Positions 1,023 to 39,118 of a stretch of 39,118 nt of DNA are shown piece after piece. Source of the stretch: a virus. The number at the start of each line of letters is the position of its first letter. Position 1 is the stretch's first letter. The stretch spans positions 1 through 39,118 of IMG/VR virus record IMGVR_UViG_3300009285_004197; one strand, 5' to 3'. Below the pieces are notes generated by a model, which was not told where the DNA came from, searched no databases, and saw nothing but the letters and a program-made list of their open reading frames with translations. The position numbers and the translations under genes were made by a program.

Positions 1023-1643
1023 ATGCCAACCTTAGCCTCGCTCCAACCTGACAACCGTTGGCGCATTGCAATCCTCAAGCCGGAGGTCGGCCTGGTCGCC
1101 GCCAATGCGGAAGTATCGGCCATCATCACGACCGGCCTGGTAGTGGACCTCATTCAAGGCGCATTGACACCTGCCGAGGTGAGCGCCCGCCTAGAGACAA
1201 CGACCGCGAATGTGCTGTTCGTCATCAGTCACGGGTTTGAGCGCGGCATCCTGCTCAGTCGTCACATTTCGACCGAACCGATAGCGGAGCTTCATGACGA
1301 TGGCCTGTTCGACTTGACCGATCTCCCTGCCGCCACGCGTGACAAATTCGACCTCATCATCCTAAATACATGTAGCTCTGACACTGCCGCGCGCAACCTG
1401 CAAAATGTCATGCGCGCGGGCATCATTTGCACGACACTGGCCGTCGATGACGCCGAAGCCGCCGCGTTCGGCGGGCGGTTTGCGCGCTATCTGGCCCAGA
1501 CCAATGATCCGGAATGGGCCTATGCGATGGCCCGGCCCGGCAACAATGACCAGTATTTTTACGCGGCTGCGATTCCGCAGGCGAAACCCATGTCCGATTT
1601 TTTAGCGGGTCGCCTGACTATCCTAGAGACACCGGCACTGTGA
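1023..1643 (+). CDS. CHAT/caspase-like cysteine peptidase fold protein
   Basis: This 206-residue protein has the layout of the CHAT/caspase (clan CD) fold. A hydrophobic strand ends in VISHG (His70). A second strand, DLIILNTCSS, carries Cys117. Then comes an AGIICTTLAVDD segment followed by AFGGRFARYL, which matches the substrate-side strand and helix typical of CHAT domains (the avatlWpvdD then FYrrL pattern). His70 and Cys117 would be the catalytic dyad. It is the first gene behind the late promoter and overlaps the next gene by GTGA, next to XhlA-like and holin-like genes, the position where an endolysin is usually found. Its substrate is unknown. The fold assignment is from motifs only; a non-catalytic CHAT-like protein is possible. 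Confidence 0.65.
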   Translation: MPTLASLQPDNRWRIAILKPEVGLVAANAEVSAIITTGLVVDLIQGALTPAEVSARLETTTANVLFVISHGFERGILLSRHISTEPIAELHDDGLFDLTDLPAATRDKFDLIILNTCSSDTAARNLQNVMRAGIICTTLAVDDAEAAAFGGRFARYLAQTNDPEWAYAMARPGNNDQYFYAAAIPQAKPMSDFLAGRLTILETPAL

Positions 1644-18749: not shown

Positions 18750-18898
18750 CGTACATGGACCGCCTGACGATTCTCTTGACATCCGCACGGGAAGTTGCCA
18801 TAATGATTATCAGCATGATCGAGGATTACCTGAACGTGCCGTATGACCGCAGCGCATTGGCGAAGCGACGGGCAAAGGTAAGGGAGTTGGCAAGGTGA
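18746..18898 (+). CDS. Small amphipathic protein (50 aa)
   Basis: GTG 18746 overlaps the stop of the giant gene (GTGA); ATG 18755 is an alternative giving 47 residues. A short hydrophobic helix (VAIMIISMI) is followed by a Lys/Arg-rich tail. Its stop overlaps the next start (GTGA at 18895-18898). Overlaps on both sides support it as real. Function is unknown. Confidence 0.5.
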   Translation: MTYMDRLTILLTSAREVAIMIISMIEDYLNVPYDRSALAKRRAKVRELAR

Positions 18899-26441: not shown

Positions 26442-27311
26442 ATGTACATTCAACCTTATTTGCGCGCCCAAACTGACCTGCTGGCCGACATCCAGGCGGA
26501 CGGTTACACGACCGCGCTGGGCTGGTCAGCGCCGGAAGTGTATCGGGCCATGAACCGGACGTTGGCGGGTTGGCAGAAGCGCGTACTCATCCCGCGTCTA
26601 TACACCATCACCGGCGGCTGGGTGGCGGGCACGTACGCGTATAGTTTGCCTGCCTACGTGCGCCCGCCGATCACGCCACAACTGCTGCGGACACGCCCCT
26701 ACGACGAAGACTTGCCCACTACGGGGGACCAGACCTGGCAGGATTTGCCGGGCTGGATGGAGGAGCCGGAGGCGGACGGCGGCCTGACGTTGCGTGTGAC
26801 CATGTTGACCTATACGCAGGAGGGCAGGGTCATTTGGTATGCGCCCAACGGCAGACTGCCAACCGGGACCGCGCCCACCACCAACGCGGAGATCGACGCG
26901 GACGATACCAGCCTGACGATGGGCAGCGCCGTGGACTGCGAGGATACGGGTTGGGTGGACATGGACGATGAACGGCTGTTCTATGCGGGCAAGGGCGTGG
27001 CCTCGTCCGTCACTACGTTGAGCAACCTGGTCCGCGCCCAGAATGGGACCACGGCGGCCACCCACGTGTCCGGCAGCAGCGTCGTGTGGGGTGTAGCCGT
27101 AGACGACCTGGGACTGTACGAACAACTAGCCAACCAGACCAAGGCGTATCTGCATCAGCAAATGCTCATCAACACCAGCGCCCATGAGACGGGGCGACAC
27201 GAACGGCTCATGCAGTACTACCAGAACGAGGCGGACAAGTTCTGGGTGGGCTACGCCTCGCAGCGGCCCAGTCCGCGCATGGTGCTGGACCGCCGCTTCC
27301 TGCTGAGGTGA
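26442..27311 (+). CDS. Head-tail adaptor protein, SU10/gp11-like
   Basis: The 289-residue protein begins with helices (LRAQTDLLADIQADGY, then EVYRAMNRTLAGWQ) typical of podovirus adaptors that join portal to nozzle. A beta insert near 145-215 ends LVRAQNGTTAATH, and the C-terminal helices (YEQLANQTKAYLHQQM) follow. The insert has the same layout as the one in the capsid protein. It sits directly upstream of the metallopeptidase-like and nozzle genes. GAGGTGA precedes ATG 26442. Confidence 0.65.
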   Translation: MYIQPYLRAQTDLLADIQADGYTTALGWSAPEVYRAMNRTLAGWQKRVLIPRLYTITGGWVAGTYAYSLPAYVRPPITPQLLRTRPYDEDLPTTGDQTWQDLPGWMEEPEADGGLTLRVTMLTYTQEGRVIWYAPNGRLPTGTAPTTNAEIDADDTSLTMGSAVDCEDTGWVDMDDERLFYAGKGVASSVTTLSNLVRAQNGTTAATHVSGSSVVWGVAVDDLGLYEQLANQTKAYLHQQMLINTSAHETGRHERLMQYYQNEADKFWVGYASQRPSPRMVLDRRFLLR

Positions 27312-27312
27312 C

Positions 27313-27705
27313 ATGGACGATCTCAAAGAACTATTTTCCGTATGGATTCCACGTTTGGGGCTGGGCTGGTGGGACATCAATATCCGATACTATGATGACC
27401 CTGAAGAAGTGCTCCAAAGGTTTGGTTCAACCGATGCCGCAGATCATCTCGTTGCCGCCAGGACATACACGCATTGGATGTACGGCAAGGCCACGATTGA
27501 TGTCAACCTTCACGCGATGCGAGAGCTGACCCGCGACGAACTGAAAACTATCGTAGTCCATGAGCTTTGCCACATCTTGGTCAACGAAATGCGCGAGGGT
27601 GAACTACACCACGAGGAGCGTGTTGTCACGGGTCTGACCAAAGCGTTTCTCTGGGCGGTCGAATCGGCTCTAAACGACAACCGTGATAGGAAGGGCGAGT
27701 CGTAA
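27313..27705 (+). CDS. Putative zinc metallopeptidase (HExxH)
   Basis: The 130-residue protein contains VVHELCHILV (HELCH at 83-87) and a downstream HHEERVV with Glu101/Glu102 able to be the third zinc ligand, as in small gluzincin-like phage peptidases. No signal peptide is seen. Proteins of this kind recur in phage structural clusters with unknown substrate; virion protein processing or peptidoglycan peptide cleavage are both possible. Confidence 0.65.
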   Translation: MDDLKELFSVWIPRLGLGWWDINIRYYDDPEEVLQRFGSTDAADHLVAARTYTHWMYGKATIDVNLHAMRELTRDELKTIVVHELCHILVNEMREGELHHEERVVTGLTKAFLWAVESALNDNRDRKGES

Positions 27706-27708
27706 GCA

Positions 27709-30030
27709 ATGTCCACGATCCAGTTGGGTGCGCCTGGTGCGCTGCGTAAATACCCGGTTAAGGCGCGGGGCGACGGCCTATTGTGGGGGCGAGGCCCCGC
27801 GCAACCGTTCTCGGCTAAGGTCAACACGTCTAATCCATACGACGAAGTGGACATCTGGAACGAGTGGGTACAGACCGACTGGCAGCCGGGCGTGGGGCGC
27901 GTCGTCCCGGAGGAGGGCGGTTTTCTGTTCGGCGAGACGGACAGCCGCGTGCCCAAGCAGTTGATCCTGCCGCCGCTCTTGTGCCAGACCGACCAGCGCA
28001 CGGTCAACGGGACGCCCGCCGACTGTCGCTATATGCCGGAAACGATGGCCGGCAACGAAGTCACGGTGGGGCCGAGTGCCGCCGTGCGGCGGATTGCGGT
28101 CCAGTTCACGACGCCCGCCTTTGTTGATCTAGAGAGCGCCGAGTTTCTTACCAAACAGGGCTTCTTTTTCTACGGCAAGGTCCCCAACGGCGTCGAGGTA
28201 CGCATCGCCGTTTACAGCAACAGCGCAGGCGCACCCAACGCCAGCGTCGTCGCGGACACCTTTACGGCCTACGAGACGGCCCCGACCTACTACTGGTGGG
28301 GTGTGCAACTTGCCAGTGCGAGTCTGGCGGAGAGCACCACCTACTGGATGATCGTCGAAGTCGTCACCGCGGGCGAAACGATCTCGGTGGCGACCGGAAA
28401 CAGCGGCTACACGGTGGCGTCGCAGACCTACAACGGCACGACCTGGGCGGCGCTGACCGGCAAGTACCTCTGCTACACAACGGACATTCACACGACCAAC
28501 ATCGGAGGCTTTACGGCGGGAGGTTCGGCGGCGGGCAGCATCATCCGACGGTTTAACGATGCGCTCTATTTTGCGCGCGGGAGTTGGGTCTGGAAATATA
28601 ATACGACCAATAGTGCGTGGGAATATACCAGCGCCATTGCCGGTGGCGACAACATCATCAGCGCCGAAGTGTTTGGACCGCGTCTTTACTTGGGAACGAA
28701 CACCGGCAACTACGGTTATCTTGACACACTTGACGCCATCACGTCCATCGGCAGCGGGGCGCACATCCTGCTCGAATACCAGGGGTTGCTCTATCGCGTA
28801 GATGAGTACGAGTTATATTACTCCGCCAACCCGGACGGCGGTTGGACGGGACCGTATGCCGTGGGTAGTTCGGCGTTTCGCATCACGGGGATGGCCGGGC
28901 TGGGCGACTCGCTGTATCTCGCCAACGCCAAGGCGTTGTACCGTTTTGCGCCCGGCGACGTGGTGGAAGAGGTCTTGCGGTGGGGGGCGGAGGACGACGC
29001 CAATGGGTTGGGGATGTTGACCTGGAAGGGCAGCATCTATATCCCGCTGGCCGACCGCATCATGCAGATGACAGCCGACGGACAGATTCAGGACGTTTGG
29101 ATTAGCACCGAAGGGGACCTGCCATACGAACGGTTGGGTCGCATCGACTTTCTTTTCGGTAGCAACAACTGGCTCTTGAACTATATCAATTCGCGCGGCC
29201 TTGTGCCGCGTCCGATGGTGCTGGCCTACCAAGAGGAGGGCTGGCACACGCTGGCGACGTTGCCCAACGAACCGAACCCCGTCACCACCGAAAGCAACTT
29301 GGTCACTTACTACGACCGCGGCACGGGCAGGCTCTGGATCGCCTGTAGTGTGCTAGGACCCATGTACATAGACCTGCCTGACTACGCTATCAACCCCTAC
29401 AACGACACCGCCAGCCGCTACATGCCCTATGCGTGGGTGGAGTGGGACAAGTTCTTCGGCGGGCAAATCTTGCTCAACAAGGACTTCGAGAGCGTCATCA
29501 TCAGCGGCGACGGGCTGGACGCGACCGGCTATATCCAGGTCTACTGGCAGGACGAGGGCAGCACGGATTGGGAACTACACGGCACGATAGACAGCGACGG
29601 CAAGGAACTGCGCTGGACGGACTATGCTACGCGTCCGGCGGGCAAGTGGGTCAAACTGGGGCTGCTGCTGGTCAGCACGGACGGGACAGCGACGCCGCGC
29701 GTGCGTGCGGTGGTGGTCAAGTTCCTGCCCATGGTCAACGACCGCTTCCGCGACACCATAACCTTGACGCTGGCGGACTACATTACCTTCCCGGACGGCA
29801 CGCAGAGCACCTACACGCGGGCGCAACAGTGGTCACACCTGGACAGCATGATCCGGCGCGTCATTCCGTTTATCTACCAGGACCCATTGGGCGACCAGTA
29901 CGAGGTCAAGGTCGTTGACTGGAGCTGCAACGTGCCCCTCTACAACACGGACACCGGCTCCGGTGTGGTCCGAGAGCAGGAAGTAGTCCTGGTGCTGGAG
30001 CAGACGCCCAATGCCGGATACACGCCTTAA
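27709..30030 (+). CDS. Tail nozzle / tail tubular protein B-like, beta-propeller
   Basis: The 773-residue protein begins with GAPGALRKYPVKARGDGLLWG and is then largely beta-structured. An early carbohydrate-binding-like domain (about 110-250) precedes repeated propeller-blade-like segments (RFNDALYFARGSWVWKYN, DSLYLANAKALYRF, GSIYIPLADRIMQM). A C-terminal domain with VKFLPMVND and QEVVLVLEQTP completes it. This is the architecture of podovirus nozzle proteins (gp12 of T7, gp10 of P22 class), which close the DNA channel below the adaptor. Its end overlaps the next gene by 20 bases. Confidence 0.7.
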   Translation: MSTIQLGAPGALRKYPVKARGDGLLWGRGPAQPFSAKVNTSNPYDEVDIWNEWVQTDWQPGVGRVVPEEGGFLFGETDSRVPKQLILPPLLCQTDQRTVNGTPADCRYMPETMAGNEVTVGPSAAVRRIAVQFTTPAFVDLESAEFLTKQGFFFYGKVPNGVEVRIAVYSNSAGAPNASVVADTFTAYETAPTYYWWGVQLASASLAESTTYWMIVEVVTAGETISVATGNSGYTVASQTYNGTTWAALTGKYLCYTTDIHTTNIGGFTAGGSAAGSIIRRFNDALYFARGSWVWKYNTTNSAWEYTSAIAGGDNIISAEVFGPRLYLGTNTGNYGYLDTLDAITSIGSGAHILLEYQGLLYRVDEYELYYSANPDGGWTGPYAVGSSAFRITGMAGLGDSLYLANAKALYRFAPGDVVEEVLRWGAEDDANGLGMLTWKGSIYIPLADRIMQMTADGQIQDVWISTEGDLPYERLGRIDFLFGSNNWLLNYINSRGLVPRPMVLAYQEEGWHTLATLPNEPNPVTTESNLVTYYDRGTGRLWIACSVLGPMYIDLPDYAINPYNDTASRYMPYAWVEWDKFFGGQILLNKDFESVIISGDGLDATGYIQVYWQDEGSTDWELHGTIDSDGKELRWTDYATRPAGKWVKLGLLLVSTDGTATPRVRAVVVKFLPMVNDRFRDTITLTLADYITFPDGTQSTYTRAQQWSHLDSMIRRVIPFIYQDPLGDQYEVKVVDWSCNVPLYNTDTGSGVVREQEVVLVLEQTPNAGYTP

Positions 30031-30583
30031 ACCCCTCGCCAAACCTAAAGCCCTGAAGCGGCTGCCCGGATTGGGCAGGCGGGAAAAGCTGCCGCCGCTA
30101 CCCAACTTGGGTGGTGAGCCAAGTACAGTCACGCTCACGGACGACGCGTTGCAGCGTCTGACGAACCAGTTGGGTGATGAGGCGTTGGCGAAGCGCGTGT
30201 TGAAATTGCAGGAGAAATGGCCGCAGGGGACCGTGCCGGAGATGATCGTCATGGACTTCCTGGAACGGAGACGGGTTAAGTACGAGTACCAGGTATGGCT
30301 GCTGGGCGGTCGCGTCCTCAAGGGAGGCCAGGTCGTGGACTTCGTGGTGGACCTGGGCATTGGCGTTATGATCGTCGAAGTGGAAGGAAACTACTGGCAC
30401 ACCCGTCCCGGCAAGGCGCAGTTGGACGAAGGGCAAAAGATGGCGCTGTTGGGGCTGATGGTATGGGGAAAGAAGGTTCGCGGTGTGGTCGAGGTGTGGG
30501 AAAGCCGGATTGCAACCGACAACCGGACCCGTCGCGACCAGGCGCTCAACGCAATGTTGCAGGGCAAAGGGTTAGGAGTCTGA
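30011..30583 (+). CDS. PD-(D/E)XK nuclease-like protein (Vsr/DUF559-like)
   Basis: The 190-residue protein has a basic N-terminus and then a restriction-endonuclease fold signature: TVPEMIVMDFLERRRVKYEY (Glu77), GGQVVDFVVD (Asp110 in VDF), IVEVEGNYWH (Glu123, Glu125, His130) and a following long helix. The order matches Vsr and DUF559 proteins. It starts inside the nozzle gene and is coupled (TGATG) to the fibre gene, a rare location for such a nuclease. It may be virion-carried, a repair or homing enzyme, or an anti-host nuclease. Confidence 0.6.
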   Translation: MPDTRLKPLAKPKALKRLPGLGRREKLPPLPNLGGEPSTVTLTDDALQRLTNQLGDEALAKRVLKLQEKWPQGTVPEMIVMDFLERRRVKYEYQVWLLGGRVLKGGQVVDFVVDLGIGVMIVEVEGNYWHTRPGKAQLDEGQKMALLGLMVWGKKVRGVVEVWESRIATDNRTRRDQALNAMLQGKGLGV

Positions 30584-31611
30584 TGCTCACCGCCAACGAT
30601 CTCAAACAGGTCATGCGGTCAGTAGCGACATGGACCGAACGCTACTTCTGGCGGAAGAACTCGCACGTGCGGGTCAGCGCGGGGTCTGTGCATCGTTCGC
30701 TGCCGATTGTTCTGGACGACGACGGCAAGGTGGATGCGAGTATGCTGGACTCAGCGGACATCGCTGCTGCCATCCACGCCGCCACGCTGGACGCCGTGCC
30801 GCTAGACGCCGACGAAGTGCCGGGCCTGGATTCATCGGCTTCATTTGCATTGTTGAGATGGACGTGGACTGATATCAAGGCATTTCTCAAGACGTACTTC
30901 GACACGCTGTATAACCTGTACGTCCACCCCAACCATACGGGCGACGTGACCAGCATAGCGGATGGGGCGACCACCATTGCTGCTGATGCCGTGACCTATG
31001 CCAAGATGCAGAATGTTTCGGCCACAGACAAAGTGCTCGGACGTGCTACCGCTGGAGCGGGCGATGTGGAAGAAATCGCCATGACTGCGGCGGGGCGGGC
31101 GTTAGTAGATGACGCCGATGCCGCAACGCAACGTGCGACATTGGGGCTGGGCACGATAGCCACCGCTGCCACAGGCGATTATATTCCGGCTAATGGCGCT
31201 ACTGCCGTTACCGGCGACGCCAACCTCAACCGCGCTCAACTCGACATTGCCGACATCACCAGCACCCAAACCCTCACCGTAGACACCGAATACACCGGCG
31301 ACGCCAACCTGCGTAACTTCGTCACTACTCTCGACCTCACCCTCACCCGCAATGGCAACAGTGCCATTTACGTTCTCGTCCACGCCATTTTCTATTGGCG
31401 GCACAACGGCGCAGATGCTACCGTGCTCACCGCCTACGATCTCAGCTATCATGCCAATAGCTCTCAGGTGGTTAGCCTAGCTACCACCACCGACGGTGTG
31501 CGCCTCACTGTCACCGGCCCCCACAGCAACACCTGCAACGAAAACGCCGTCCAAATCGCAACCTTCGGCTCCGATTCCCAACAAATTTCACACACGGTGA
31601 CTATCACATGA
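30583..31611 (+). CDS. Tail fibre protein
   Basis: The 342-residue protein starts at ATG 30583, one base inside the previous stop. The N-terminus contains WTERYFWRKNSHVRVSAGS and LDDDGKVDASMLDSADIAA, and a Trp-rich attachment region. Residues about 115-200 carry fibre-type repeats (HTGDVTSIADG, AVTYAKMQNVSATDKVLGR, RATLGLGTIA) common in phage tail fibres. The C-terminal 120 residues form a Thr-rich beta domain, likely the receptor-binding tip. Confidence 0.75.
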   Translation: MLTANDLKQVMRSVATWTERYFWRKNSHVRVSAGSVHRSLPIVLDDDGKVDASMLDSADIAAAIHAATLDAVPLDADEVPGLDSSASFALLRWTWTDIKAFLKTYFDTLYNLYVHPNHTGDVTSIADGATTIAADAVTYAKMQNVSATDKVLGRATAGAGDVEEIAMTAAGRALVDDADAATQRATLGLGTIATAATGDYIPANGATAVTGDANLNRAQLDIADITSTQTLTVDTEYTGDANLRNFVTTLDLTLTRNGNSAIYVLVHAIFYWRHNGADATVLTAYDLSYHANSSQVVSLATTTDGVRLTVTGPHSNTCNENAVQIATFGSDSQQISHTVTIT

Positions 31612-32048
31612 CCAGAATCATTGAAGAAGGTGAAGTTCGCATCCAGGGCGCAGAGGCGACCGACGGCATCTTGGGATTATACTCAGACCAGGGAGACGAT
31701 GACGCTGACAAATGGAGAATTACTAAATACGCATCAACAGAAAATCTCAATTTCGAATACTGGGATGGAACGACATGGCAGACTGCTTTTGCTCTCGTGA
31801 GAGAAGGAAATGTTAATCAAACTCTTTTATTTCCAAGTCTGTATATACGGCAACTAATATCTGCACCGACTTTCACGAAGCCTGTTTTACAGCTAGAGCA
31901 AACAGATTTATCGGAGGAATTTATTGAATTTGATGCCACTGTCGCGGCGGGTAATCCGATCCAGACGGCCGCCGTAGGGACGTACTACGGCAAGATTCGG
32001 GTATCGGTAAATGGAACGTTTAAGTACATAGCACTCTATAATACGTAG
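31608..32048 (+). CDS. Second fibre or fibre-tip protein
   Basis: The 146-residue protein is coupled by ATGA to the fibre gene. It is beta-rich (GLYSDQGDDDADKWRI, NLNFEYWDGTTWQTAF), with a C-terminal YYGKIRVSVNGTFKYIALYN typical of fibre ends. GC falls to roughly 45% in 31700-31930, below the neighbouring genes, as expected for a frequently exchanged receptor-binding gene. It ends the clear late operon. Confidence 0.6.
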   Translation: MTRIIEEGEVRIQGAEATDGILGLYSDQGDDDADKWRITKYASTENLNFEYWDGTTWQTAFALVREGNVNQTLLFPSLYIRQLISAPTFTKPVLQLEQTDLSEEFIEFDATVAAGNPIQTAAVGTYYGKIRVSVNGTFKYIALYNT

Positions 32049-32054
32049 GCTGTA

Positions 32055-32147
32055 GTGACCGTGCGGGCGTGGGTGGTGGCGACGGAGCGCACGCGCGGCG
32101 AGATTGTGGCGCTGGCGGCAGGCGAGGGGTATTTCACGATTGAATAA
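32055..32147 (+). CDS. Possible 30-aa peptide, doubtful
   Basis: GTG 32055 opens 30 codons (VRAWVVATERTRGEIVALAA and so on) ending at TAA 32145-32147, seven bases after the fibre-tip gene. It overlaps the end of the convergent leftward gene by 14 bases. High GC and sensible codons, but too short to judge; it may be a gene fragment. Confidence 0.25.
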   Translation: MTVRAWVVATERTRGEIVALAAGEGYFTIE

Positions 32148-32379
32148 TGTCTGTCATGTCATTCACCTCTCTAATACGTCCCAGCGCCGCCAGCATTGCC
32201 GCGGCCACTTGCACGGCAGTATAATCCCCGGACGGTTTGCAGCGGGCATGTTCACGCCACCGTTTGCGATAGCCGGGTTTAATCTCGATAATGGTAGGTT
32301 CGTTACGCTTGAGCCGGTACTGTGCGCCGCTTGTCAGCGCGTTTGCTTGTCGTGCCACCTTTTTGTTCCTTTCGTTCAA
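32134..32379 (-). CDS. Small basic protein, last gene of the leftward operon
   Basis: An 81-residue frame starts at TTG 32379 behind a GGGGGG run. The first half is Lys/Arg-rich (NERNKKVARQANAL, KPGYRKRWREHARC) and the second helical (YTAVQVAAAMLAALGRI). The frame is open further upstream, but that extension overlaps the Cys-rich gene and looks non-coding. Function is unknown. Confidence 0.45.
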   Translation of the reverse strand: MNERNKKVARQANALTSGAQYRLKRNEPTIIEIKPGYRKRWREHARCKPSGDYTAVQVAAAMLAALGRIREVNDMTDIIQS

Positions 32380-32389
32380 TGTACCCCCC

Positions 32390-32704
32390 TCATTTCGCCC
32401 CACGCGGCGTCTCAATGATGCGGGTCGTGTAAGGTCTGCGTCCCCGTGGCCCGCGCTTGGCGCGCAGCGCGTCATGGCGAATGGACCACACCAGTCTGAA
32501 TAAGTTGCCATCCCAGCCGCTGCGTGTTGGGCGACGTTGGGGTGGAGCGGGCCGTCTGACCTGTTCATGGCATGAGCAATCCTCGAACTGGCAGGTGTGG
32601 ATGACATGCCCTCCGGCCCAGTGGCAGCATGGATTTCCGCCACTACATTTCTGCTTACATGGCACGCGCGTCATGTTATATTGATCTTCGGCGAAATTGG
32701 GCAT
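32390..32704 (-). CDS. Cys/His-rich small protein
   Basis: A 104-residue frame from ATG 32704, eight bases after the upstream stop. A cluster CKQKCSGGNPCCHWAGGHV then HTCQFEDCSCH provides many possible metal ligands, followed by an Arg/Pro-rich tail. The pattern suggests a zinc-binding protein. No strong ribosome site; AGGAG lies 17 bases away, so coupling or another start is possible. Confidence 0.5.
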   Translation of the reverse strand: MPNFAEDQYNMTRVPCKQKCSGGNPCCHWAGGHVIHTCQFEDCSCHEQVRRPAPPQRRPTRSGWDGNLFRLVWSIRHDALRAKRGPRGRRPYTTRIIETPRGAK

Positions 32705-32711
32705 TGTGTAA

Positions 32712-32954
32712 TCATGGCTGCATCTCCTGTTCCCATTCCATTTTGCGCGTTTCTTCCGGTCCCGGACAACTGCGAGGTGTAAGGCCATAACGCCATCCCT
32801 TGCGCGTCCGACCAATCATGTCCAGGTGCATGTCTGGCGTGTTGATGTAGTCGAGTCCCGCGACACGCTTTCGAGTTCGCACGCCGCCGCAGACGATGCA
32901 AAACGAAACGATGGTATCCATGAATGTCTCGCCTTCGTCCCATTGATGCCTCAT
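32712..32954 (-). CDS. Small protein with CxxC motif
   Basis: The 80-residue protein starts at ATG 32954, six bases after AAGGAG. SFCIVCGGVRTRKR gives one CxxC, then LDYINTPDMHLDMIGRTRKG and a charged end. The second start, ATG within GETFMDT, is in frame. Function is unknown. Confidence 0.6.
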   Translation of the reverse strand: MRHQWDEGETFMDTIVSFCIVCGGVRTRKRVAGLDYINTPDMHLDMIGRTRKGWRYGLTPRSCPGPEETRKMEWEQEMQP

Positions 32955-33145
32955 GGTAGTCTCCTTCCTTCCGATTTTCGTCTCGCTTCATCCCGGTGCA
33001 GACCGTGGATGCGCTGCGTCAACTCGGCGATCTGGTGTCGCAGTTCCAGCCGCTTGCCCGCGGCTTGCGGCATGTGGGTCAGGGCATCATGCTCGGCGTG
33101 CAGCTTGGCGATGTCGGCGCGCAGGGCGATCTCTTGGTCAGTCAT
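32951..33145 (-). CDS. Small helical coiled-coil protein
   Basis: A 64-residue, almost fully helical protein (EIALRADIAKLHAEHDAL, RLELRHQIAELTQRIHGL) starting at ATG 33145, which overlaps the upstream stop (ATGA). Its stop overlaps the next start. It could pair with the neighbouring helical protein. Function is unknown. Confidence 0.55.
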   Translation of the reverse strand: MTDQEIALRADIAKLHAEHDALTHMPQAAGKRLELRHQIAELTQRIHGLHRDEARRKSEGRRLP

Positions 33146-33345
33146 GCTGTGCCGGCGTTCACTGTCGGCGTGCGTGCGGCCAATAATGTTACCTGGTGAC
33201 GTAGCCGATTGCGCTCGCTGATAACATCCTGCAACACCGTCTCCTTGCGTCGGTTGCGTTCTGCCAGTGCCAGATACGCCAGGATGATTTGGTCCTTCGT
33301 CATTGCTCGTAGTCGCGGGGCGGTGAGTTGCTGGTCTGCGCTCAT
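33142..33345 (-). CDS. Small helical protein next to the helicase loader
   Basis: A 67-residue protein from ATG 33345 with GGAGG upstream, inside the end of the loader gene (ATGA). The sequence MTKDQIILAYLALAERNRRK followed by VISERNRLRHQVTLL is helical and coiled-coil-like. Part of the replication cluster by position; no family recognised. Confidence 0.55.
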   Translation of the reverse strand: MSADQQLTAPRLRAMTKDQIILAYLALAERNRRKETVLQDVISERNRLRHQVTLLAARTPTVNAGTA

Positions 33346-33683
33346 GCGGCCTCCAACAATCGCTTGCCTTCGCCCAACTGTCGCTGGTCGCGTTGCCGCC
33401 ACACCTCATCGCAGCCAATCGCAATGCCGCGCAGACTGTCGGGACAGTACGCCCGCTTGCGTTCCTCTGCCGTCATCTCTATGCCAAGCTCATTACGCAT
33501 CTGCCTGAGTTCTGCCACCGTGGGCAAAAACTTGGACGTTGTAATTGCCTGGTCTACCATTTCCTGCAACTGGTCAACAGGGATGGATACCAGCGCCCGC
33601 TCATACACCGCTATCGTCTGGAGCGACATTCCCGCGCTGGGATAGGCCGCGGCCAATTGCTGCAAAACGCCGGTCGTGTCCAC
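33342..33683 (-). CDS. Probable helicase loader / replisome organiser (G39P-like)
   Basis: The 113-residue protein has the pattern LQQLAAAYPSAG, then TIAVYERALVSIP, then LQEMVDQAITTSKFLPTVAEL. It resembles the N-terminal helical domain of phage helicase loaders and inhibitors such as SPP1 G39P. The C-terminal half is charged, with two Cys. GTG 33683 overlaps the initiator stop (TAGTG), so both are made together, as expected for an initiator and loader pair that brings the host helicase to the origin. Confidence 0.55.
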   Translation of the reverse strand: MDTTGVLQQLAAAYPSAGMSLQTIAVYERALVSIPVDQLQEMVDQAITTSKFLPTVAELRQMRNELGIEMTAEERKRAYCPDSLRGIAIGCDEVWRQRDQRQLGEGKRLLEAA

Positions 33684-34525
33684 TAGATGCTCCCCGCGGC
33701 CTTGAGCCGCCGAAATTCGTCGAAGTTCGCCATAGTCTGTTCGCTCTTGGATAATGGCCTGCCATTATTGCGTGGAATGGGCATATCCATCGGAACGGCT
33801 GCGCGCAGCTTGCCGATCTCATTGCGAAGCACATTGAGAGTAGGCCGCTGGTTCTTCTCAGTCCAACGGAAGTCTTGAAACCACACCTCAGTCATAAATC
33901 GCCGCACATCATCCGAACCGTACTCGGCTTTCTTTAGGATGCCGATAACTTGCGCCACGCGTCCGGTGGCATCCTTCGTCAAGGTCTTGTAATCCCAGCC
34001 GATAACTTCACAAATGGCGGCGAAAAATTCCTGTTGGGGAGTCGGGTCGGGCTGCGGCGTAGCCGCAACATTCTCTGGTTTCCCTTCCGGTTCTCTATCC
34101 GGTTCTTTCTGATCCGGTTCTTCTATATATGCGGACAGGATGTCTACCCTGTTGGTGACAGGATGTCTACCCTGTTCGGTCAGGATGTCTACCCTGTGGT
34201 AGTCAGGATGTCTACCCTGTGCATCTACAGGGTAGACATCCTGACTACCCTGTTCGGCGCATTTGGGTGCAAGTAATATCCTGTAGTATGACGGTGAGTG
34301 ATACTGCGGACGCGTGGCAATCTCAATCTCGCCCATCTCGACCAACTCGATAATCGCCCGCGTGACCGTGCGCTCCGACAACCCACATTCAACGGCGATA
34401 CGCTCATGTCCAGGCCAGGCGATACCGTCATCATCGGCATAGTCCGACAACAGCATCATCACGGCGCGGGCGCTCCGCTTGGCTCGGCTATGTTGGCGCA
34501 CGATGTCACGATAGCGTCTACCCAT
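33683..34525 (-). CDS. Replication initiator, lambda O-like, with iterons in its gene
   Basis: The 280-residue protein has an N-terminal winged helix (AVMMLLSDYADDDGIAWPG, LSERTVTRAIIELVEMGEI; HTH_36-like, residues 20-85). A linker follows whose sequence is dictated by DNA repeats (QGRHPDYHRVDILTEQGRHP). The C-terminal helical domain (FFAAICEVIGWDYKTL, RRFMTEVWFQDFRWTEK) is plausible for recruiting the loader and helicase. The layout matches phage lambda O: DNA-binding domain, origin repeats in the middle of the gene, interaction domain at the end. There is no phage polymerase, so host replication enzymes are presumably recruited. Confidence 0.7.
   Translation of the reverse strand: MGRRYRDIVRQHSRAKRSARAVMMLLSDYADDDGIAWPGHERIAVECGLSERTVTRAIIELVEMGEIEIATRPQYHSPSYYRILLAPKCAEQGSQDVYPVDAQGRHPDYHRVDILTEQGRHPVTNRVDILSAYIEEPDQKEPDREPEGKPENVAATPQPDPTPQQEFFAAICEVIGWDYKTLTKDATGRVAQVIGILKKAEYGSDDVRRFMTEVWFQDFRWTEKNQRPTLNVLRNEIGKLRAAVPMDMPIPRNNGRPLSKSEQTMANFDEFRRLKAAGSI
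34086..34253 (-). repeat. ori: Iteron array, probable origin of replication
   Basis: The 17-bp sequence caggatgtctaccctgt occurs exactly at 34136-34152, 34159-34175, 34181-34197 and 34204-34220, and inverted at 34227-34243. A half-copy taccctgt is at 34246-34253. Starts are 22 or 23 bp apart, two helical turns, which changes the reading frame between copies, so selection acts on DNA. Next to it are three tccggttct repeats (34086, 34098, 34113) and a TTCTATATAT stretch that could melt first. Confidence 0.75.
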
Positions 34526-34528
34526 TTG

Positions 34529-34747
34529 TTATCTCAGTTCATCGCGCCCGGCGTCGGTTAGCCGGTATTCATAGCGGCAGAGAAGTCCCTCATGCGGGCG
34601 GTGTTCCACCAGCCCTAATACACGCAGCCGTTTCCAGGTCGTACCGTGGATGCCGAGACCGTTGCTCGGTACGTAATGCCGCCACACGCCGGATGCCGTA
34701 CGTATGCGCCGCAGGGCACTGAGTTGGTGCGTGGTGAGTTGTGTCAT
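34529..34747 (-). CDS. Winged-helix DNA-binding protein A
   Basis: The 72-residue protein has the small winged-helix pattern THQLSALRRI, TTWKRLRVLGLVEHR, YEYRLTDAGRDEL, in which the last part is the wing followed by a closing helix. It resembles MarR/PadR-type minimal domains. It begins at ATG 34747 overlapping the end of its neighbour (ATGA) and lies just upstream of the initiator. It is probably a transcriptional regulator. Confidence 0.6.
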   Translation of the reverse strand: MTQLTTHQLSALRRIRTASGVWRHYVPSNGLGIHGTTWKRLRVLGLVEHRPHEGLLCRYEYRLTDAGRDELR

Positions 34748-34995
34748 GGCGACGCTCTAAGTCGTTCGCGACCTGCCGGAATGATGCGGTACTTGCGCTT
34801 CATGTCGATTCGTTGGCCGTCGTTGCTGCGAGTCTTGAAGTATTGGGCCTCGGCATAGCCGCGCCGGCAGAGTTTCGCCAGCATGTTGCCCGTGCTGCCG
34901 ATCTCTGGCGGCAACACCCAAATTTGCGCTTGGGCCAGGGCCGCGAGCGCCTCGTAGGCGACCGTGGATAATTTTTTCGTGCGGATTACTGTCAT
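34744..34995 (-). CDS. Winged-helix DNA-binding protein B
   Basis: The 83-residue protein has STVAYEALAALAQAQIWVLP, NMLAKLCRRGYAE and KYRIIPAGRERL, the same helix-turn-helix-wing-helix order as the next gene. The two may be diverged paralogues. It starts at ATG 34995 with GGGAG about 10 bases upstream. Confidence 0.55.
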   Translation of the reverse strand: MTVIRTKKLSTVAYEALAALAQAQIWVLPPEIGSTGNMLAKLCRRGYAEAQYFKTRSNDGQRIDMKRKYRIIPAGRERLRASP

Positions 34996-35281
34996 GTCAA
35001 TGAGTCTCCCAGGGACCGAGCCATATCACCGTCGAAACCGTACCTACGCCGGCAATGGCGGCGTCACGGCTGATACAGCCCGGGCCCCACGCAAAGGAGG
35101 GTTTACTCGCCTGCCGCACCAGTCTGGACTATACCCGCAGGCGTGTGACTGCGCCCTGGGCCGGATTCACCTGGTGTAGCCCGTTTCCACTGTCGAGATC
35201 AGATTAGTCCCGCCGGTCGCTCACGGTGGCGATTTGGCTCGGCTGCGTGCTCGTCGTCATGCTCACGCGTGGCCGGGCTAG
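34996..35281 (-). other. Non-coding stretch without a supported gene
   Basis: This 286-bp stretch lies between the tRNA-like gene and winged-helix gene B. I see short palindromes and only short or unconvincing frames, and no clear promoter. It may be the trailer of the tRNA-like transcript and leader of the replication genes. Confidence 0.5.
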
Positions 35282-35405
35282 TGGGTCGGGCAGGAGTTGA
35301 ACCTGCATCCTCTATGATGCGAACACGACAGGGATTGTGTCGAGAATTGCCACACAATCGGGTCGAGTGTGTTCGCGCGCCGCTCTAGCCTTGAGCTACC
35401 GACCC
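35282..35405 (-). tRNA. tRNA-like gene with an enlarged central region
   Basis: On the minus strand, GGGTCGG (5' end at 35405) pairs perfectly with CCGACCC, followed by discriminator A. TA and a D-arm with stem GCTC/GAGC and loop AAGGCTA follow the 5' strand. The T-arm is GCAGG-TTCAACT-CCTGC (35290-35306). Between D and T arms there are 74 bases where about 22 are expected after position 26. The extra sequence folds into GCGAACAC/GTGTTCGC and, inside it, GATTGTGT/ACACAATC. I cannot assign an anticodon. CCA is not encoded. It may be a tRNA with an insertion or a tRNA mimic. Confidence 0.6.
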
Positions 35406-35410
35406 AGGGT

Positions 35411-35435
35411 GCCGGGTGTTTGCGGCACACCCGGC
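35411..35435 (-). other. 9-bp hairpin just upstream of the tRNA-like gene
   Basis: GCCGGGTGT (35411-35419) and ACACCCGGC (35427-35435) form a 9-bp stem with a 7-base loop, 6 bases before the tRNA-like 5' end. It has no T-run. It could mark processing or protect the transcript. Confidence 0.5.
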
Positions 35436-35702
35436 GAAGCCGCTGCCCCACCACCCGGTGATTACGGCTACGCCGGGAACCGTCCTGCTTATTCTGCTCC
35501 GCAGTACCACCGCCATCGTGATTAGTTTTCCCTTTTCGGCTCATATTCCGAATCTGGAATCCTCCCACGTTAGCTACGATCTCCTGGGAGCATTGGACCA
35601 CCGCCGCAGTGCCGACCTGCGCCGCCCGAAGACGGGGAACCGTCCGCGGAGTGTGTCGCTACAAGTCCGTCCGTTCATTGAGTACCCTCACGAGATCGCG
35701 CG
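35436..35702 (-). other. Non-coding stretch without a supported gene
   Basis: The 267 bp between the hairpin and the next leftward gene contain open frames on both strands, but these lack ribosome sites, and the minus-strand frame runs into the tRNA-like gene. I see nothing I can support. Confidence 0.45.
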
Positions 35703-35954
35703 CTAATCATCACCCCGCGGCAACGTCACCACGAGTTTGCCGGTCTTATGGTCGATGCGAAACTCCCAGGCATCTAACTCCGGGTATCGCTCTCGAAGCG
35801 ACCGATATAGCATTTTGTTCTGCGCCTCCGCTTGGGCCAATAGATTTAGGATGCCGTTGTATAGTATGTCGCCCTTCTCGACGAAGGCTGTCGCGGTGCC
35901 GCGGGTGGCATCGTCCATCTCTATCACAAAGCCAACTTGAATTTCGCTATTCAT
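35703..35954 (-). CDS. Small protein of unknown function
   Basis: The 83-residue protein starts at ATG 35954, six bases after GAGGAGA. It has a beta-strand start (IQVGFVIEMDD), a helical centre (ILYNGILNLLAQAEAQNKML) and strands at the end (WEFRIDHKTGKLVVTLP). Probably an early regulatory or accessory protein; no family recognised. The frame is open upstream into a remnant of another gene. Confidence 0.65.
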   Translation of the reverse strand: MNSEIQVGFVIEMDDATRGTATAFVEKGDILYNGILNLLAQAEAQNKMLYRSLRERYPELDAWEFRIDHKTGKLVVTLPRGDD

Positions 35955-36107
35955 TTCGTTCTCCTCGCTAGAATCAGATTTTATCCTCCCGGCCATACTC
36001 CGCCAGTTGGGGGCGCACTTGCCGCCGACTGACGGCTTGTGATGCCGATGCACCTGCGTCACAAACGCGTGCGCTTCAGCGAGAGTTAATGGTTGGAGTT
36101 GGAGCAT
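35955..36107 (-). pseudogene. Truncated XF1762-family gene start
   Basis: From ATG 36107 the frame reads MLQLQPLTLAEAHAFVTQVH then RHHKPSVGGK. This is the characteristic N-terminus of XF1762-like GNAT-fold phage proteins (the HRHHxPxxGxK signature). After about 30 residues the family sequence stops and unrelated residues run into the next gene in the same frame. The usual length is about 120-150 residues, so most is missing. A fusion protein of 134 residues is an alternative reading. Confidence 0.6.
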
Positions 36108-36259
36108 CACACCCACCCCATCGTCCGCGCCGCCAGCCACAGCAGCAACGCGAATGCCGCCAGGAACCACACGCCGCGCTCGTGATGATCTCCGCGTTCC
36201 CCGCTTACACGAGGACGGGGACTAATCTTGTCGTAGTCGTGCCATGTTGCGTCCGTCAT
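36107..36259 (-). CDS. Small membrane protein (50 aa)
   Basis: ATG 36259 overlaps the stop of the RHH gene (ATGA), and the TGA at 36107-36109 overlaps the next ATG (TGATG). The 50-residue frame has a charged N-terminal half and one membrane helix near the end (GVWFLAAFALLLWLAART). Coupling on both sides supports expression. Function is unknown. Confidence 0.55.
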   Translation of the reverse strand: MTDATWHDYDKISPRPRVSGERGDHHERGVWFLAAFALLLWLAARTMGWV

Positions 36260-36474
36260 TCAATCGGCTCCCGCCGGCCGTTGGCGGCGACCATCTCCAG
36301 ATTCATCGCCTCTGTTTTCTGCTCTGGTTTGATTCTGCCGGAGGCAATATCCACTAACTGACGTAGCAATTCCGAACGCGAATAACCAAGCGCCGACGCT
36401 AGCAAATTAACCTGTTTTATCTGCGCCGGTGAGAACCATGCGCCAACAAATTTATCTTCCGGTCTATGTGCCAT
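36256..36474 (-). CDS. Ribbon-helix-helix (CopG/Arc-like) regulator
   Basis: The 72-residue protein has the RHH pattern: a short strand KFVGAWFS, helix AQIKQVNLLASALG, turn YSRS, helix ELLRQLVDIASGR, then a charged tail. RHH dimers bind DNA with paired strands. AGGAGG precedes ATG 36474 by 6 bases, and transcription would begin only about a dozen bases upstream. As first gene of the leftward operon beside the mirror-image promoters, it is the likely repressor of both. Confidence 0.7.
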   Translation of the reverse strand: MAHRPEDKFVGAWFSPAQIKQVNLLASALGYSRSELLRQLVDIASGRIKPEQKTEAMNLEMVAANGRREPIE

Positions 36475-36492
36475 GCGACACCTCCTATAACT

Positions 36493-36520
36493 ATTATGAC
36501 AGTGTTTTTAACAATGTCAA
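36493..36520 (-). promoter_or_regulatory. Leftward early promoter
   Basis: On the minus strand TTGACA (36515-36520), 16 bases, then CATAAT (36493-36498). The -35 is a perfect consensus and the -10 matches 5 of 6. Start near 36486, leading into the RHH gene. Confidence 0.8.
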
Positions 36521-36560
36521 TAGTCGGTCTGATTCGGTACAAAACTTTAAGGTTGCATGC

Positions 36561-36589
36561 TTGACATTAGTTAAAAACACTGTCATAAT
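36561..36589 (+). promoter_or_regulatory. Rightward early promoter
   Basis: TTGACA (36561-36566), 17 bases, CATAAT (36584-36589). It is nearly identical to the leftward promoter, including the spacer. Start near 36596, driving the genes from 36642 onward. Confidence 0.8.
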
Positions 36590-36641
36590 GGTATCAGACA
36601 GGGACGCAGCGAGCGACCCGCAACGAGGAGGAGATAGAACG

Positions 36642-36836
36642 ATGGCAATTGACAGCACGAAATTCACGGATGACCGGCTTGAGAACATTGCCATACTCGC
36701 CGGAGATGGCTGTTCACCGAGCATCGTCGAGGATTACATTGAATTTCATTGGGACAACCAGGAAGAACACGACGCCTGGATTGCCACGGCGACGGATGAG
36801 GAAATTGCGGATTGGATCGCCGCCTGCCGCAAGTAG
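36642..36836 (+). CDS. Small acidic protein, first gene of the rightward operon
   Basis: The 64-residue protein starts at ATG 36642, nine bases after GAGGAGGA. It is strongly acidic, with a predicted helical C-terminus (EEHDAWIATATDEEIADWI). As the first product of the regulated rightward operon it could be an antirepressor or other host- or switch-directed protein, but no family is recognised. Confidence 0.6.
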   Translation: MAIDSTKFTDDRLENIAILAGDGCSPSIVEDYIEFHWDNQEEHDAWIATATDEEIADWIAACRK

Positions 36837-36849
36837 CCCACACAAAAAC

Positions 36850-36879
36850 GGCCCGGCGCTGCGCCAACAGCATCGGGCC
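36850..36879 (+). other. Intercistronic hairpin
   Basis: GGCCCG (36850-36855) pairs with CGGGCC (36874-36879), with an inner GCTG/CAGC stem. No T-run follows, so it is not a standard terminator; it may stabilise or process the early message. Confidence 0.4.
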
Positions 36880-36907
36880 AAGTTCCCAACTGAAAGGCAG
36901 GAACACC

Positions 36908-37180
36908 ATGAGTATAACACTTGAGTACAGCAATAGCAAGGATGTCACGACCCGCAATCTGGACGCCCAGGCCGCCCGGCGTGACCTGGAATGGCAACGT
37001 GGATTCGGCGCTTGCCAGTTCGCAGAGTGCAGCTACGCCGACCTGCCGAACGAGGACCAGCGCCAGGGCTGGCGAGCCGCCGAACGAGCCGGGGCCGATG
37101 CCGATACCGAGACGTACTTAGCCGACCGCCGTCATGCCACCGACGAATATACTGTCGTTCGCGAACTAGGAGCGTGGTAA
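36908..37180 (+). CDS. Small protein of unknown function
   Basis: The 90-residue protein starts at ATG 36908. It has a short strand-like start (MSITLEYSNSKD), then Arg/Trp/Ala-rich helices (ARRDLEWQRGFGACQF, RQGWRAAERAGADADTETYL). Two bases separate its stop from the recombination gene. Unknown; possibly an accessory of the annealing protein. Confidence 0.6.
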   Translation: MSITLEYSNSKDVTTRNLDAQAARRDLEWQRGFGACQFAECSYADLPNEDQRQGWRAAERAGADADTETYLADRRHATDEYTVVRELGAW

Positions 37181-37182
37181 AC

Positions 37183-38298
37183 ATGAACGCAATGATTCCC
37201 GTCACCGTACACGCCGATGAACTGGATACAATCCAGCGCACGGCCCGCCTGTTGGCGGTGTCTGGCTACTTCGACGCCAAAGGCGACACGCCGATGGCAA
37301 TTGCCCAACTCGCGACCAAGATTCTAGCCGGTCGTGAACTTGGTTTTGGTCCCTACGCCGCTGCCCGTGGCATCTATATCATCAAAGGCAATCCATCCAT
37401 TTCTGCCAATCTCATGGCCGCCGCCGTCAAAGGCAGCGGACGCTATGACTATCGCGTCAAGGAGCTCACTGACGCCAACTGCGTTGTGGAGTTCTTCGAG
37501 TTGTCAGCCGGCAAGCGCGAGTCGTTGGGCGTGTCCTCGTTTAGTGCCGCCGACGCCAAGAAAGCCGGAACGCAGAACATGGACCGTTTCCCGCGTAATA
37601 TGCTATTCGCCCGCGCCATGTCTAATGGTGTGCGGTTTTACACGCCAGACGTGTTCTCCGGCAATGCCGTTTATTTGCCGGAGGAACTTGGCGCGAGTGT
37701 GGATGGAGATGGCAACGTGGTAGATGTGGAATTGCCCAGGCGCACCGTAGACGCCGCGACAGGCGAAATCCTACCAGTCGCCCCCGCAACGCCCCGCAGC
37801 GCCCCGCCTATGCAGCCTAGCGTCGGGATTGACGGCGACATGCTGTTTGGCACAGACGCCGCCGCCTTCAATCGCATGGTTCCCGGCGCTAATGCAGGCA
37901 TTCCCTGGTATACCGCCGCCCGTGAGACCCTCACCCCTGCCATCCGGATCATAGCTGATGATCTGCTCACGCTCCACCGCAACAACGGCGGCCCGTGCAG
38001 TCCGAAGGCATACGGCTACCTCAGTGGCCTACTCGATAGTGTAATCGAGCAGGCGACCGGCGCTGAGGATGCACATCGCCGCGTACTGACCGTGCTATGC
38101 CAGATGGACGTGACCGACATCAACCGGCCATCCGCAACGATGGTGGGTCGCCTGTTGGCGTATCTCGCCACACACATCAAGGATGCCGCTGGGAACAAGG
38201 TTGAGAACCCGGACTATTCGCAGCTCATCGCCGATGCGATGGTAGCCGTGTTCCGGGCAGCCGAGGCCGTAGGCACGTCGTCGCTACTAGAAGCATAG
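37183..38298 (+). CDS. RecT/Red-beta-like single-strand annealing protein (candidate)
   Basis: The 371-residue protein starts at ATG 37183. The first 180 residues match a widespread phage family: TARLLAVSGYFD, then KILAGRELGFGPYAAARGI, then KGNPSISANLMAAAVKGSGR, then SFSAADAKKAG, then PRNMLFARAMSNGVRFYTPD and FSGNAVYLPEEL. The order of segments resembles RecT-type annealing proteins. The C-terminal third is a separate helical region (PKAYGYLSGLLDSVIEQAT). It is probably used for recombination-dependent replication or genome circularisation. No exonuclease partner is visible next to it. Confidence 0.55.
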   Translation: MNAMIPVTVHADELDTIQRTARLLAVSGYFDAKGDTPMAIAQLATKILAGRELGFGPYAAARGIYIIKGNPSISANLMAAAVKGSGRYDYRVKELTDANCVVEFFELSAGKRESLGVSSFSAADAKKAGTQNMDRFPRNMLFARAMSNGVRFYTPDVFSGNAVYLPEELGASVDGDGNVVDVELPRRTVDAATGEILPVAPATPRSAPPMQPSVGIDGDMLFGTDAAAFNRMVPGANAGIPWYTAARETLTPAIRIIADDLLTLHRNNGGPCSPKAYGYLSGLLDSVIEQATGAEDAHRRVLTVLCQMDVTDINRPSATMVGRLLAYLATHIKDAAGNKVENPDYSQLIADAMVAVFRAAEAVGTSSLLEA

Positions 38299-38306
38299 GA
38301 GGATTC

Positions 38307-38516
38307 ATGGCATATAAATATCCGCGTTATTTGTGGCGGAAGATCAAGCAACAGGGCCGTCGCCATCCACAATGCCGAAGCTGCAAGAAGATTCCGGCGG
38401 ATGGCGAAAAATACTTCGAGGTAACGATCCAGCAAAATATCTTCCGCGGCGATGATGAAATGACCTACTATTGCATGGCGTGTGGCTCACGTATCAAAGC
38501 CTCACAGCCCGCCTAG
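38307..38516 (+). CDS. Zinc-ribbon protein
   Basis: The 69-residue protein starts at ATG 38307 behind AGGAGG. CRSCKKIP and YYCMACGSRI give two CxxC knuckles about 30 residues apart, with a basic N-terminus (YPRYLWRKIKQQGRRHPQ). A zinc-binding nucleic-acid-contacting protein is likely. It lies between the RecT-like gene and the pentapeptide-repeat gene. Confidence 0.65.
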   Translation: MAYKYPRYLWRKIKQQGRRHPQCRSCKKIPADGEKYFEVTIQQNIFRGDDEMTYYCMACGSRIKASQPA

Positions 38517-38574
38517 CACCGCACCCGCCGGGTCGCGCTTCGACAGGTGGCCCTTAACCTGGAAAGGGAAAACG

Positions 38575-39118
38575 ATGAAAACATATACCACAGAGGAGCT
38601 TACCGAGATTTTGCGCCTTCACAAAATGTATGTGGAGGACCATAGGGACGGTAAGCGCGCGAACCTCAGCGGGGCGAACCTCCGCGGGGCGAACCTCAAC
38701 GGGGCGAACCTCAGCAGGGCGAACCTCAACGGGGCGGACTTCAGATGGGCGAACCTCCGCGGGGCGAACCTCAGCGAGGCGAACCTCAGCGGGGCGAACC
38801 TCAGCGGGGCGAACCTCAACGGGGCGGACTTCAGATGGGCGAACCTCCACGGGGCGGACCTCAGCGAGGCGAACCTCAGCGGGGCGAACCTCAGCAGGGC
38901 GGACTTCAGATGGGCGAACCTCCACGGGGCGGACCTCAGCGAGGCGAACCTCAGCGGGGCGGACCTCAGCAGGGCGGACCTCAACGGGGCGAACCTCCAC
39001 GGGGCGGACCTCAGCAGGGCGGACTTCAGCGGGGCGAACCTCAGCAGGGAGGACTTCAGATGGGCGGACCTCAACGGGGCGAACCTCAGCGGGGCGAACC
39101 TCAGCGGGGCGAAACTCA
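38575..39118 (+). CDS. Pentapeptide-repeat protein, N-terminal part (runs off the right edge)
   Basis: ATG 38575 (with GGAAAGGG upstream) opens a 28-residue helical cap (YTTEELTEILRLHKMYVED) and then about 30 uninterrupted pentapeptides ([20 protein letters not shown]) to the edge of the sequence. Together with the part at 1-393 the protein has at least 39 repeats, enough for a beta-helix of about ten coils, which is long for this family. It is the penultimate gene of the early rightward operon. The exact repeat number is uncertain because the ends meet inside the array. Confidence 0.85.
   Translation, partial: MKTYTTEELTEILRLHKMYVEDHRDGKRANLSGANLRGANLNGANLSRANLNGADFRWANLRGANLSEANLSGANLSGANLNGADFRWANLHGADLSEANLSGANLSRADFRWANLHGADLSEANLSGADLSRADLNGANLHGADLSRADFSGANLSREDFRWADLNGANLSGANLSGAKL
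38659..39118 (+). repeat. 15-bp tandem repeat array, right part
   Basis: Thirty copies of a 15-bp unit, most differing by one to three bases. A longer variant, gacttcagatgggcg, recurs at 38737, 38827, 38902 and 39052 (and at 76 in the left part), showing higher-order periods of 75, 90 and 150 bp produced by duplication of several units at once. Confidence 0.9.

Follow-up and report, generated by a model that had tools for sequence, protein, structure and literature searches.

Divergent promoters with a shared operator-like block and an RHH-like first gene suggest Cro-like early control in a tailed virus

Early transcription in phage lambda proceeds from two opposed promoters, PL and PR, which contain near-identical operators (OL and OR). 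The small DNA-binding protein Cro is encoded first in the set that leads to the O-type replication initiator, the O gene carries iterons inside it, and recombination genes lie in the opposite set. Both Cro and CI are helix-turn-helix (HTH) repressors, and the two lambda promoters are separated by cI and rex. Ribbon-helix-helix (RHH) repressors of a tailed phage are known from P22, in which Arc and Mnt (immI) act in a secondary immunity region, on ant and on their own genes, as opposed to replication and recombination sets; the operator of Arc is located between the -10 and -35 of its promoter. For an RHH fold acting on early promoters, the nearest functional precedent is F55 of the archaeal virus SSV1, a small protein whose sites lie at its own promoter and at several early ones, all of which it represses (PMC5569661, PMC9608457). 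Homologous operators overlapping divergent promoters have also been described in the cI-cro region of staphylococcal phage phi11 (PMC3991615).

Here we describe a locus that combines elements of these systems. The window is the whole virus record IMGVR_UViG_3300009285_004197 (39,118 bases), which may be incomplete. Two divergent gene sets are separated by a gap of 167 bp (36475-36641) with a G+C content of 43%, compared with 59% for the window, and this stretch is best explained as the region from which a tailed bacterial virus controls its early genes. The promoters, the block that they share, an internal control promoter and the gene content, all as predicted from the DNA, are given below. 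The gap contains the following features.

36493-36520, minus strand: PL, leftward early promoter, with TTGACA at 36520-36515, a 16-bp spacer, CATAAT at 36498-36493 and TG before the -10
36561-36589, plus strand: PR, rightward early promoter, with TTGACA at 36561-36566, a 17-bp spacer, CATAAT at 36584-36589 and TG before the -10
36493-36512, minus strand: putative operator copy in PL, GTTAAAAACACTGTCATAAT over the spacer and -10, a perfect 20-bp match to the PR copy
36570-36589, plus strand: putative operator copy in PR, GTTAAAAACACTGTCATAAT, a perfect 20-bp match to the PL copy

PL and PR each agree with the sigma-70 consensus at 11 of 12 positions. Read 5' to 3', PL is TTGACATT-GTTAAAAACACTGTCATAATAGTTATAGGAGG and PR is TTGACATTAGTTAAAAACACTGTCATAATGGTATCAGACAGG; they point away from each other, with their -35 elements separated by 40 bp, and their spacers differ by one inserted base (16 vs 17 bp). 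An initial annotation had described back-to-back, consensus-like promoters that differ by a single base insertion and have a perfect 20-bp sequence in common over the spacer and -10. Both features were recovered, and the whole record contains two copies of the 20-mer GTTAAAAACACTGTCATAAT and no third, with 77 bp from centre to centre. With flanks included, 22 of 23 bp are identical. Block and -10 are the same in both promoters; with these unchanged, the one-base difference in -35 spacing would allow the two promoters to differ in strength while still responding to the same concentration of repressor.

The 20-bp inverted repeat is far beyond chance. Perfect inverted repeats with arms no more than 150 bp apart reached 13 bp at most in 40 Markov copies of the window and 11 bp at most in 5000 copies of the A+T-rich gap. 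A reading of the putative operator as a dyad (TGACAnTGTT N3 AACAnTGTCA at PL, with 9 of 11 pairs) was dropped as evidence, as 9% of shuffled spacers do at least as well and only 7 of 11 pairs are present at PR.

A scan of the whole window for promoters returned a single further site with an 11/12 match.

18776-18804, plus strand: control promoter lacking the operator-like block, with the same hexamers as PL and PR and a 17-bp spacer, located before capsid genes

This promoter has TTGACAT, 17-bp spacing and TGnCATAAT, and is followed by an SU10-like capsid gene cluster. Its inner spacer, GCACGGGAAGT, resembles that of PL and PR, GTTAAAAACAC, at only 2 of 11 positions although the hexamers are the same, which argues that promoter function does not demand GTTAAAAACAC. 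Since a near-consensus promoter is possible without this sequence, its exact repetition at PL and PR calls for a separate explanation, of which a common binding site is the simplest. The probability of 11 matches in 11 inner-spacer positions arising by chance is approximately 3e-7 to 3e-6, and GTTAAAAACAC takes up the entire part of the spacer that is not constrained by promoter function. The shared block is thus most likely an addition to the promoter code, namely an operator.

The same identity could in principle reflect history as opposed to regulation: a strong early promoter might have been duplicated in inverted orientation and not yet diverged, giving two promoters of equal strength and no co-regulation. 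The extent of the likeness is compatible with this, since with one gap allowed it runs over the whole promoter, from the -35 element TTGACATT to three bases beyond the -10, with one mismatch. However, it goes no further than the promoter borders, beyond which the DNA is unrelated on either side, and it already contains a gap, while the different spacer of the 18776 promoter indicates that this sequence is free to drift unless selected. We consider such a duplication unlikely. A purely structural or recombinational role for the inverted repeat, as an invertible segment, a cruciform or an RNA hairpin, is extremely improbable. Although the strand over the repeat has a strong predicted RNA fold (z -7.7), the transcripts from PL and PR begin outside the arms and run away from them, and neither includes the hairpin. 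Were the 57 bp that separate the arms to invert, the two -35 elements would change places and both promoters would survive. Profile searches of the record, itself possibly incomplete, gave no match to a tyrosine or serine recombinase (PF00589, PF00239), while the controls were positive. The inversion switch and RNA hairpin readings were rejected on anatomy.

If the block is an operator, a candidate for its ligand is encoded immediately to the left of it.

36256-36474, minus strand: 72-aa RHH-like protein, proposed repressor, first gene of the left set, with sub-threshold matches to PF20605 and RHH_1 and similarity to a plasmid RHH protein
34529-34747, minus strand: 72-aa PadR-like winged-helix candidate, a rival ligand for the operator (Pfam PadR E 0.005, under cut-off)

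That an RHH gene comes first on the left had been proposed initially; its position is as described, and the RHH assignment, weakly scored yet credible, is based on matches to Antitox_RHH (PF20605, E 3.4e-4) and RHH_1 (E 0.0076) that both fall under the curated cut-offs. The nearest homologues are CopG/RHH proteins of sphingomonad conjugative plasmids, which adjoin conjugation genes and precede those for a coupling protein and a MobF relaxase. The identity to one such protein is 51% over 39 aa, with little likeness outside the domain; this plasmid protein is itself a weak RHH_1 match, and its relatives are annotated as RHH/CopG. A single-sequence structure model (pLDDT 70) places helices at 16-29 and 33-44, as expected, and a further helix at 5-13, but it is a poor model in which the N-terminal strand is absent. 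A fold search gave no significant match, and a search of solved structures by sequence returned just designed repeat proteins and other irrelevant matches. On balance, the product of the first leftward gene is likely to be an RHH protein.

The start codon of this gene lies about 12 nt from the predicted transcription start, and the AGGAGG that precedes the ATG makes up half of the leader of about 12 nt. Such a promoter-proximal position is the usual place for the gene of an autoregulated repressor. This bears on the question of which protein would bind the block, as there are other candidates. The PadR-like and HTH_3 matches point to two of them, the winged-helix protein at 34529-34747 and an HTH protein at 2349-2822 (match at 2463-2546) whose gene precedes that of the terminase; a host regulator is a third. 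With any of these as ligand, some other task would fall to the RHH protein, such as plasmid-style DNA handling, in line with the location of its closest domain relatives beside coupling protein and relaxase genes. Nevertheless, the PadR match (E 0.005) spans just half of the profile, and the HTH_3 match is weak, below cut-off and situated where a small terminase subunit is usual, while it is the RHH gene that occupies the spot expected for a self-regulating repressor. A ligand other than the RHH protein is therefore possible but doubtful.

The genes on the two sides of the control region can be compared with those of lambda. The left set contains, in order after the RHH gene, a 50-aa protein, small frames, a tRNA-like RNA, two small proteins and a replication initiator. 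The main features of the left and right sets are as follows.

36107-36259, minus strand: 50-aa protein with a hydrophobic C-terminal stretch, overlapping the end of the RHH gene, predicted from sequence; no family match
33683-34525, minus strand: lambda-O-like replication initiator (PHROG 1032/391/270, E to 2e-15; Pfam HTH_36)
34134-34257, no strand assigned: five iterons of 22-23 bp inside the initiator gene, four direct and one inverted
36642-36836, plus strand: 64-aa acidic protein, first gene of the right set, an ORF with GAGGAGGAG upstream; no family match
36908-37180, plus strand: 90-aa protein of the right set, an ORF; no family match
37183-38298, plus strand: RecT-like single-strand annealing protein (PHROG 561, E 3e-17)

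As the iterons lie inside the initiator gene, as they do in lambda, the region at 34134-34257 is probably the origin. The last, inverted iteron copy gives rise to a perfect inverted repeat of 23 bp around a loop of 6 nt (34198-34249), the one inverted repeat in the window that is longer than the 20-bp block of the promoters. No leftward terminator was detected between the RHH and initiator genes in a terminator scan. On the right, the best match of the RecT-like protein is the annealing protein of Synechococcus phage S-LBS1 (locus L005), with 44% identity over part of the length. Both the left (replication) and the right (recombination) sets are expected to be early, and their content resembles that of the lambda PR and PL operons.

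Two observations on the left set stand apart from this comparison. The RNA at 35282-35405 (minus strand) scores 42.6 bits against the Rfam tRNA model, for which the gathering score is 29, and has a fold z of -4.0; it carries about 69 nt in the region of the anticodon arm, which normally has 17, and ARAGORN made no tRNA call at these positions. In the frame 36107-35703 (minus strand), approximately the first 29 residues (36098-36012) match the N-terminus of XF1762, a profile of 143 positions, and then diverge, which probably marks a gene remnant.

In layout and gene content, the locus is a lambda early region with an RHH-like protein in the seat of Cro. Its standing as a control region has good support, and the arrangement is ordinary in principle. 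As in lambda, opposed early promoters each contain a near-identical block (operator-like here), the gene for a small candidate DNA-binding protein comes first in the set leading to an O-type initiator with iterons, and recombination genes are found in the opposite set. The differences are also clear. The lambda repressors are HTH proteins whereas the first gene here is RHH-like; there is one copy of the putative operator per promoter, unlike in lambda; and the promoters are back to back, with no cI-type gene between them. In phi11, both CI and Cro are present, with three 15-bp operators between the repressor genes, as compared with a single candidate repressor and two copies of the block in the present case.

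Taken together, these features favor a Cro-like, self-limiting shut-off of both early gene sets by the RHH protein, to which we assign a probability of roughly 0.6. On infection, host RNA polymerase would start at PL and PR. If each gene set constitutes one operon, PL would yield the RHH protein first and the replication initiator further along, and PR would lead to the annealing protein. With its concentration rising, the RHH protein would bind the identical operators of 20-23 bp over the spacer and -10 and exclude polymerase at both promoters, with the result that both early sets would fall together and the repressor would cap its own level. The promoter at 18776, on the capsid side, would stay open, and an operator-free promoter before the capsid genes would provide a simple account of early and late timing that requires neither a phage polymerase nor a phage sigma factor.

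The initial annotation had likewise suggested that one repressor could shut down both early operons and limit its own synthesis. The operator-like block, the RHH-type first gene and the presence of expected early sets on both sides agree with this proposal, in which binding of the RHH protein to the block is the step that we infer. Its description of the locus as a switch is overstated, since a single repressor that acts alike on both promoters produces a joint shut-off as opposed to a choice between two states. The statement that there is no integrase is borne out by the recombinase profile searches described above, and neither an integrase nor a resolvase was found in the record, with the reservation that it may be incomplete. 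The same annotation had raised a plasmid-like state or superinfection immunity, for which we found no positive evidence: a profile search for ParA (PF13614), with positive controls, gave no match in the possibly incomplete record, and the record contains no convincing CI-type repressor, the sole CI-type HTH match being the sub-threshold HTH_3 match at 2463-2546. Immunity or a plasmid-like state is possible but speculative, and nothing found requires a stable repressed state.

A stronger version of this idea takes the RHH protein to be the sole master repressor, which at high level would establish a stable, non-lytic carrier state with immunity, in the manner of F55 and in the absence of an integrase or CI. 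We regard this as quite improbable. SSV1, in which there is a carrier or lysogenic state, differs in that the promoters are archaeal, F55 recognizes tandem copies of an 11-nt site, compared with one 20-bp block per promoter here, and the F55 transcript is separate from the early ones.

Relatives of the locus were sought in several ways. A DNA search with 27001-39118 against phage records gave no match, and neither the exact 20-mer nor a looser mirrored pattern was matched in viral contigs. The RHH protein had no true relative in viral contigs and no match in genome contigs; one apparent match in viral contigs (L003) proved on inspection to be part of an unrelated cysteine-rich protein, and a profile built from the RHH protein and its plasmid homologue found no relatives. 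A single RecT-like match in viral contigs lay inside tail genes and was judged spurious. Capsid, terminase and portal queries found no relatives in viral contigs, nor did the portal query in genome contigs; the terminase has distant relatives that include those of cyanophages. Thus, neither the operator nor the RHH protein was recovered in a relative from the collections searched. No tailed phage with an RHH repressor in the place of Cro was found in the papers that a literature search covered, which is weak evidence of absence.

If the RHH protein does bind both sites, a lambda-like layout would have been built on an unrelated repressor fold, which would suggest that evolution re-uses the layout and not the protein. 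Two operators and one 72-aa protein, contained in about 350 bp, would also constitute a compact repressible pair of divergent promoters.

Elsewhere in the record, a single ORF of 3482 aa (8301-18749, plus strand) occupies more than a quarter of the genome and has no PHROG match. The protein encoded at 1023-1643 (plus strand) matches a CHAT (caspase-like protease) domain (Pfam PF12770, E 1.2e-4), slightly under cut-off. At its two ends (1-160 and 38650-39118) the record runs through pentapeptide-repeat tracts of one kind and one orientation; a circular or permuted genome whose assembly broke within the repeat may explain this.
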